64,000 nucleotides of DNA from assembly GCF_000746025.2 (NCBI RefSeq), contig NZ_CP045798.1:1598501-1662500 (forward strand), read 5' to 3'. The notes under the pieces were generated by a model. That model saw only the letters and a program-made list of their open reading frames with translations, was not told the origin of the DNA and did no database searches. This DNA is from Thermanaerosceptrum fracticalcis. GTDB lineage: Bacteria > Bacillota > Peptococcia > DRI-13. How positions within the stretch are numbered: position 1 is the stretch's first letter; each line of letters begins with the position of its first letter. The position numbers and the translations under genes were made by a program. Of the stretch, positions 19,280 to 63,340 are shown piece after piece.

Positions 19280-19314
19280 TTACACTCCCTCCGTTCAAAG
19301 ATAGTTTGTGAAAT

Positions 19315-19345
19315 TAAGAAACCTCCTAGCCATCAGGCTAGGAGG
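19315..19345 (-). terminator. attenuator terminator 2 of the pyr leader
   Basis: On the minus strand a perfect 10-bp stem (CCTCCTAGCC / GGCTAGGAGG, 4-nt loop) is followed by TTTCTT, just before pyrB. Its 5' arm can alternatively pair with the segment after the second PyrR loop: AGGCTAG and GGTGTA there are complementary to CTAGCCT and TACACC. That makes a mutually exclusive antiterminator, the standard pyr attenuation design. Confidence 0.85.
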
Positions 19346-19384
19346 TGTAGATACGTACACAAATCTCTCTCGTACACCCTTACT

Positions 19385-19398
19385 AGCCTCTCTGGACT
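19385..19398 (-). promoter_or_regulatory. PyrR-binding loop 2 (anti-antiterminator)
   Basis: Minus-strand AGTCCAGAGAGGCT matches the PyrR RNA-binding consensus (ARUCCNGNGAGGYU, with the UCCNGNGAG core). In Bacillus-type systems UMP-bound PyrR stabilises this hairpin and so allows the downstream terminator to form. The element belongs with the terminator at 19315-19345. Confidence 0.88.
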
Positions 19399-19431
19399 AA
19401 TTTCAAGGGAATCCCTCATAAATTTGTAATC

Positions 19432-62765: not shown

Positions 62766-63012
62766 AAAATAAAACCCGCCTCTTTGCTCAGAGGCGAGTT
62801 TTCCCGCGGTACCACTCTGCTTACTGCTTCGCACTAAGGTAAAGCAATATCTCAGGTCTACATTGTAGACTCCTGGTATAACGGCCAGAACCGGCAGGGT
62901 ATAATGACTTCCACCCTGCAGCTCCCAGGCGGCCCCCGCTTTCAAATAAGGAATGTCACACCAAAATCATTCCCTCTCTGCTATTCTCCAGCCAGTTCTT
63001 CCTGTTCTTCGA
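62766..63012 (-). promoter_or_regulatory. T-box leader 2 (proximal)
   Basis: Read on the minus strand, AGAGAGGGAATG opens Stem I and GGAGCTGC marks its 3' side. TGGTACCGCG (62805-62814) is the T-box bulge that pairs with the uncharged tRNA end. It is followed by a terminator stem with AAACTCGCCTCT against AGAGGCGGGTTT and a T-run. The specifier is not certain; GAAAGC before the GGAGC block allows AGC (Ser) or a GCN (Ala) reading. Confidence 0.85.
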
Positions 63013-63044
63013 CTTTAGAAATGTGTAATTGTAATGTTTTGATA

Positions 63045-63280
63045 AACAAAAAACTCCCGCCCCTATCAGGGGCGAGAGCAACTCGCGTTACCACCCAGTT
63101 TCGTTTTAACCTCACGGTTAAGACCTCAGTAAGTGTCGACTGACACTTTCTTTGTTAACGGAGAAGCCTCCGGCAGTCCTTTCGGCTGCAGCTCCGGGAT
63201 GGCTTTCACCATGGAGGCTAACTGCCTTGCACCAACCGGCAGCTCTCTTCTAGACCTGCATGATTACTCTTCCCATCTTC
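63045..63280 (-). promoter_or_regulatory. T-box leader 1 (distal)
   Basis: A second, complete T-box. AGAGAGCTGCC opens Stem I, GGTTGGTGCAA is the apical loop, and GGAGCTGC follows the specifier region. TGGTAACGCG (63084-63093) is the T-box bulge, and the terminator stem CTCTCGCCCC/GGGGCGGGAG is followed by TTTTTTG. The specifier region reads GAAAGCC, again allowing AGC (Ser) or GCC (Ala). Confidence 0.85.
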
Positions 63281-63311
63281 GCTTCTGTTATATAGATGTA
63301 TGGTTATTAAT

Positions 63312-63340
63312 AATTTATGCTACAAAAGGATTTTTGTCAA
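63312..63340 (-). promoter_or_regulatory. promoter of the tandem T-box leader
   Basis: On the minus strand TTGACA (63335-63340) and TAAATT (63312-63317) are 17 nt apart, about 35 nt upstream of the distal T-box. Confidence 0.75.

Follow-up and report, generated by a model that had tools for sequence, protein, structure and literature searches.

Introduction

Tandem T-boxes are listed for the trp, leu/ilv, thr/hom and met genes and for thrS (PMC12452182), and their modes of action have been described as unknown (PMC7583486). The initial annotation of the locus studied here had regarded them as mostly described for aromatic amino acid genes, which is too narrow in view of this list. The locus lies in a 64,000-nucleotide stretch of Thermanaerosceptrum fracticalcis DNA (contig NZ_CP045798.1; hereafter, the window), where two T-box units in a row precede a single aminotransferase gene. 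A second full tandem is present in the same genome (G000), where two Ser T-boxes, both with UCC and UGGC, stand before serC-serA-serS (G000:C1:2682080-2682704). In addition, the leader of a DAHP-synthase (aroF-type) gene (L016/L019, G000:C1:3670234-3670696) comprises one complete T-box, whose specifier appears to be UUC (Phe), and behind it another antiterminator/terminator that lacks a full Stem I of its own, so that this T-box is partly doubled.

Results

Two T-Box Units in One Leader

A covariance-model fit, which the initial annotation had proposed as a check, bore out its view of two complete leaders; each has its own terminator. When compared with the T-box model of Rfam (RF00230) by Infernal, unit 1 aligned over 63288-63065 (99.1 bits, E 1.6e-22) and unit 2 over 63018-62787 (90.7 bits, E 2.3e-20), both of them along model positions 1-219 of 219. 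With the gathering score of RF00230 being 93, unit 2 falls 2.3 bits short of it, while its orthologue in the related genome G001 exceeds it at 95.3 bits. The AGAGAG apical motif, the GGAGCTGC segment and the F-box CCGTTA are found in each unit. Both terminators are strong: the folding energy is -22.5 kcal/mol for terminator 1 (z = -5.8) and -18.1 kcal/mol for terminator 2 (z = -5.2), and in neither case does any shuffled sequence equal it. The antiterminator strands of both units are aligned by the RF00230 model, thus providing each unit with competing terminator and antiterminator structures; folded in isolation, the antiterminators are weak, which is to be expected when no tRNA is present.

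Table 1. Coordinates of the tandem T-box leader, its gene and related loci.
Feature	Position	Strand	Basis or remark
Promoter TTGACA-N17-TAAATT	63340-63312	minus	position and conservation
T-box unit 1, Stem I to terminator tail	63288-63041	minus	RF00230
Specifier GCC (Ala) of unit 1, next base A	63203-63201	minus	calibrated register
T-box bulge of unit 1, TGGTAACGCG	63093-63084	minus	
Terminator 1, 12 pairs, then TTTTTG	63079-63053	minus	GC-rich hairpin and T tail
T-box unit 2, Stem I to terminator tail	63018-62762	minus	RF00230
Specifier GCC (Ala) of unit 2, next base G	62933-62931	minus	calibrated register; unchanged in G001
T-box bulge of unit 2, TGGTACCGCG	62814-62805	minus	
Terminator 2, 13 pairs, then ATTTTTT	62802-62771	minus	GC-rich hairpin and T tail
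Ribosome site AGGAG of the aminotransferase gene	62737-62733	minus	
Class I (fold type I) aminotransferase gene, 410 aa	62723-61491	minus	family and fold matches
serC-serA-serS tandem locus (L001/L003/L087)	G000:C1:2682080-2687000		
Single GCC T-box, Lrp/AsnC-type gene and PRK07682-like aminotransferase	L078, L080, L089, L091, L093, L094, L096-L098, L100		

The promoter is located as had been claimed. Since the promoter scan would turn up some 1.3 sites of this kind by chance alone over a region of this size, its assignment rests on its position and conservation. It is the single promoter-like site upstream of both units, and none lies between them. The tail of terminator 1 is separated from the start of unit 2 by about 22 nt, and no minus-strand open reading frame of at least 80 aa was found between the units, so that two complete units form one leader with one promoter and no intervening gene, that is, a tandem T-box. 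Elsewhere in the window, a PyrR binding site is found on the minus strand at 19313-19412 (RF00515, 59.5 bits).

Conservation of the Tandem

Besides the genome studied here, our sample contains a single one of the same genus, G001, to which a Peptococcaceae MAG corresponds in GTDB. It carries the same tandem before an aminotransferase orthologue of 91-92% protein identity. Between the two genomes, identity amounts to 97.6% for unit 1 and 96.0% for unit 2, as against 90.8% over the first 483 coding bases, where 31 of the 46 differences fall at third positions. The specifiers, F-boxes and T-box bulges are unchanged in G001, and the promoter hexamers are kept bar one base (TAAATT to TAAAGT). The full-length model matches, together with this conservation, rule out a chance resemblance of the leaders to T-boxes. 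Units 1 and 2 are well diverged from each other, and the tandem is therefore not a recent duplication.

Outside the genus, no T-boxes were found in the retrieved flanks of distant homologues of the aminotransferase (37-47% identical); judged from these flanks, the tandem looks genus-specific in this sample. A contig search matched only a MAG of the same genus (Peptococcaceae bacterium M1_7_4_bin.22) and distant homologues.

The Specifier Codons

As a ruler for the codon register, we used other T-boxes of the same genome, in which 19 T-box matches were found. Fourteen leaders served for calibration, with the amino acid taken from the downstream gene or operon: serC-serA-serS (two units, both Ser), ileS (Ile), trpE (Trp), thrS (Thr), the ilvD leader (Leu), pheST (Phe), alaS (Ala), valS (Val), cysE-cysS (Cys), tyrS (Tyr), an ilvA-like gene (Ile), metS (Met) and glyQS (Gly). 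The genes were named by reading their translated products; NCBIfam confirmed SerS. The name serC was given because the gene stands ahead of serA and serS; the family models that fit it best are those of related class V aminotransferases. We chose the codon windows in the leaders by hand and then measured the distances with a script. In all 14 leaders, the end of the correct codon lies exactly 9 nt ahead of the end of the GGAG motif or its equivalent. This register corresponds to the "+0" frame, which is the one preferred by TBDB (PMC7778990).

Two further observations were made on the T-boxes of this genome. The hisS-aspS leader (L004/L088, G000:C1:511518-514600) shows AAC (Asn) in the calibrated register rather than a codon for His or Asp. 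Such a codon would be in keeping with an AspRS that charges tRNA-Asn as well; by its score, however, the AspRS is of the standard bacterial type, and a G-U wobble would be required at the T-box base. Near the thrS leader, a weak match to a group II intron domain was found (L006 598-681; RF00029, 40.4 bits).

In the calibrated register, the specifier position holds GCC in both units. The claim that both specifier regions read GAAAGC is thus wrong for unit 2, where GAAAGC (62943-62938) is located upstream of the specifier and most probably belongs to the 3′ strand of the helix above its loop. Furthermore, unit 1 and the leader of alaS have a 16-nt stretch, GAAAGCCATCCCGGAG, in common, and the tRNA that would match the specifier, tRNA-Ala(GGC) with A73, was found in the host by ARAGORN.

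The discriminator base points the same way. According to ARAGORN run on the tRNA loci, tRNA-Ala(GGC) has A73, the three tRNA-Ser have G73, and the Thr, Cys and Gly tRNAs have U73, and the fourth T-box base tracks them: the Ser leaders have UGGC, the Thr, Cys and Gly leaders UGGA, and the Ala leader UGGU. The T-box bulges of units 1 and 2 carry UGGU, which is complementary to the ACCA end of tRNA-Ala. The rule is not strict, as UGGU is also found in the trpE leader, in spite of the G73 of tRNA-Trp; since wobble is tolerated in this genome, the discriminator by itself does not exclude Ser.

The initial annotation had left a choice between Ser (AGC) and Ala (GCN), of which the Ala part stood and the Ser part did not. 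It is very improbable that both units read AGC, sense tRNA-Ser and link the aminotransferase to serine supply. In unit 1, AGC does sit one base upstream of GCC, and the genome has a tRNA-Ser(GCU), but this AGC falls outside the register common to all 14 leaders, while AGC of unit 2 (62940-62938) lies upstream of the specifier position. The known Ser leaders of the genome use UCC with UGGC, and, as each of the three tRNA-Ser genes found has G73, the pairing with UGGU would include a G-U wobble. Thus, instead of a Ser codon at the specifier and UGGC for G73, both units present GCC and UGGU. Given the register (14 of 14), the 16-nt match to the alaS leader and the discriminator base, we conclude that the specifier, as read from the sequence, is Ala (GCC) in both units, not Ser.

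The Second Unit

The specifier loop of unit 2 lacks the usual AGUA/GAA loop-E letters. Given this atypical loop and the score below gathering, its tRNA binding could be weaker. The same two features would also fit unit 1 being the sole working sensor and unit 2 a decaying or relaxed copy acting mainly as a constitutive terminator, but this is unlikely: the 96% identity of unit 2 in G001 is above that of the coding start, its specifier, F-box and T-box bulge are unchanged there, AGUA is also lost in the thrS, pheS, ilvD and ilvA-like leaders of this genome, and a terminator deprived of its sensor would shut the gene off. In GAAAGCGG, unit 2 also contains GCG, which might serve as a second Ala codon. 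On account of this codon and the atypical loop, one might suppose that the units are non-redundant, with unit 2 differing in affinity for tRNA-Ala or in isoacceptor preference, and that alanine is sensed by the pair at two thresholds; we consider this a slim prospect.

The Aminotransferase and Ala T-Boxes Elsewhere

The aminotransferase of the window is close to the archaeal multiple-substrate and kynurenine aminotransferases and to Thermus LysN. Its nearest solved relatives (PDB) are multiple-substrate, kynurenine/2-aminoadipate and alanine-glyoxylate aminotransferases, which accept several substrates, and the family models define fold and family only, naming no substrate.

An exact pattern spanning the Ala specifier, when searched for in 399 genomes of the phylum, matched only in this genome (alaS and the locus studied here) and in two others, in both of which a T-box precedes an Lrp/AsnC-like gene with a class I aminotransferase gene behind it. 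After a scan with one mismatch, confined to the class of one of these two genomes, such loci were known from ten genomes, nine in the scanned class and one represented by L080 (Table 1). The ten belong to at least four genera, and each has one T-box by Infernal (77-132 bits). The remaining one-mismatch matches had no T-box bulge nearby and were taken as chance. The Lrp/AsnC name comes from reading the sequence, as NCBIfam at 1e-30 gave no match. The aminotransferase of these loci is PRK07682-like and belongs to a subfamily other than that of the window enzyme; an orthologue of it in the genome studied here was ruled out, the best identity being only 33%.

Alanine and serine are both made by transamination. 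An aminotransferase under a Ser or Ala T-box had been called unexpected, a judgement at odds with the serC-serA-serS tandem in the same genome and with the ten other genomes that have an Ala T-box at such a gene; as alanine forms by transamination, this wiring is not odd. Moreover, the same Ala wiring on two aminotransferase subfamilies supports each of them supplying alanine. The window enzyme is fairly likely to be alanine-forming. The nature of its nearest solved relatives would also suit an enzyme that spends alanine as the amino donor for another product, e.g., 2-aminoadipate or aromatic amino acids, with the T-boxes sensing alanine and feedback acting on the donor rather than the product. 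We regard this as unlikely: T-boxes normally raise the synthesis, uptake or charging of the sensed amino acid, inducing an alanine consumer during alanine shortage would be counterproductive, and other genera use the same Ala wiring on a different subfamily. For an alanine-forming enzyme, it should be added that an alanine dehydrogenase is also encoded in the genome, so that a two-route alanine supply is possible and the aminotransferase need not be the sole source.

Discussion

Very probably, two attenuating T-boxes specific for tRNA-Ala(GGC) control in series an aminotransferase gene, the product of which most likely converts pyruvate to alanine with the help of an amino donor. The anatomy, terminators, specifier register, discriminator match and conservation are observed; tRNA binding, an AND-like behaviour of the units in series and the substrate of the enzyme are inferred. 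When tRNA-Ala is charged, polymerase would halt at terminator 1 or, having slipped past it, at terminator 2. Under alanine shortage, uncharged tRNA-Ala would pair in each unit by its anticodon with GCC and by its ACCA end with UGGU, thereby stabilising the antiterminator and letting polymerase through. Because polymerase must pass both units, the serial terminators would multiply the basal readthrough down, and the response to uncharged tRNA would be steeper. The aminotransferase is then probably made only when alanine runs short.

The leader thus offers a clean test case for tandem T-boxes, with equal specificity, two separate terminators and one downstream gene. At the same time, a probable role in alanine synthesis is assigned to a promiscuous-looking aminotransferase through wiring that other genera use on another subfamily. 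No report of an Ala T-box on an aminotransferase gene was found in the literature searched, which did not cover the main older comparative surveys, and we do not claim to be the first to report this link.

Each unit shares with the transcriptional, long Stem I type described by RF00230 the AGAGAG Stem I, the specifier loop, Stem II, the IIA/B F-box and Stem III, as well as the antiterminator with the UGGN bulge and the terminator with a T tail; the differences are the short Stem II of unit 1 and the atypical specifier loop of unit 2. Like the single Ala T-box loci of other genera, the locus has an Ala T-box wired to an aminotransferase, whereas those loci have one unit, an operon with a regulator and another aminotransferase subfamily. 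The serC-serA-serS tandem likewise places two T-boxes of the same specificity before an aminotransferase gene, but it is Ser-specific (UCC, UGGC) and leads a three-gene operon. As in the listed tandem T-boxes (PMC12452182), two complete units with their own terminators precede one transcription unit, while the enriched targets in Table 2 of that work include neither Ala specificity nor a class I aminotransferase such as this one. The Ala tandem is a further case of the documented tandem T-boxes, assembled from parts that are ordinary for such bacteria.
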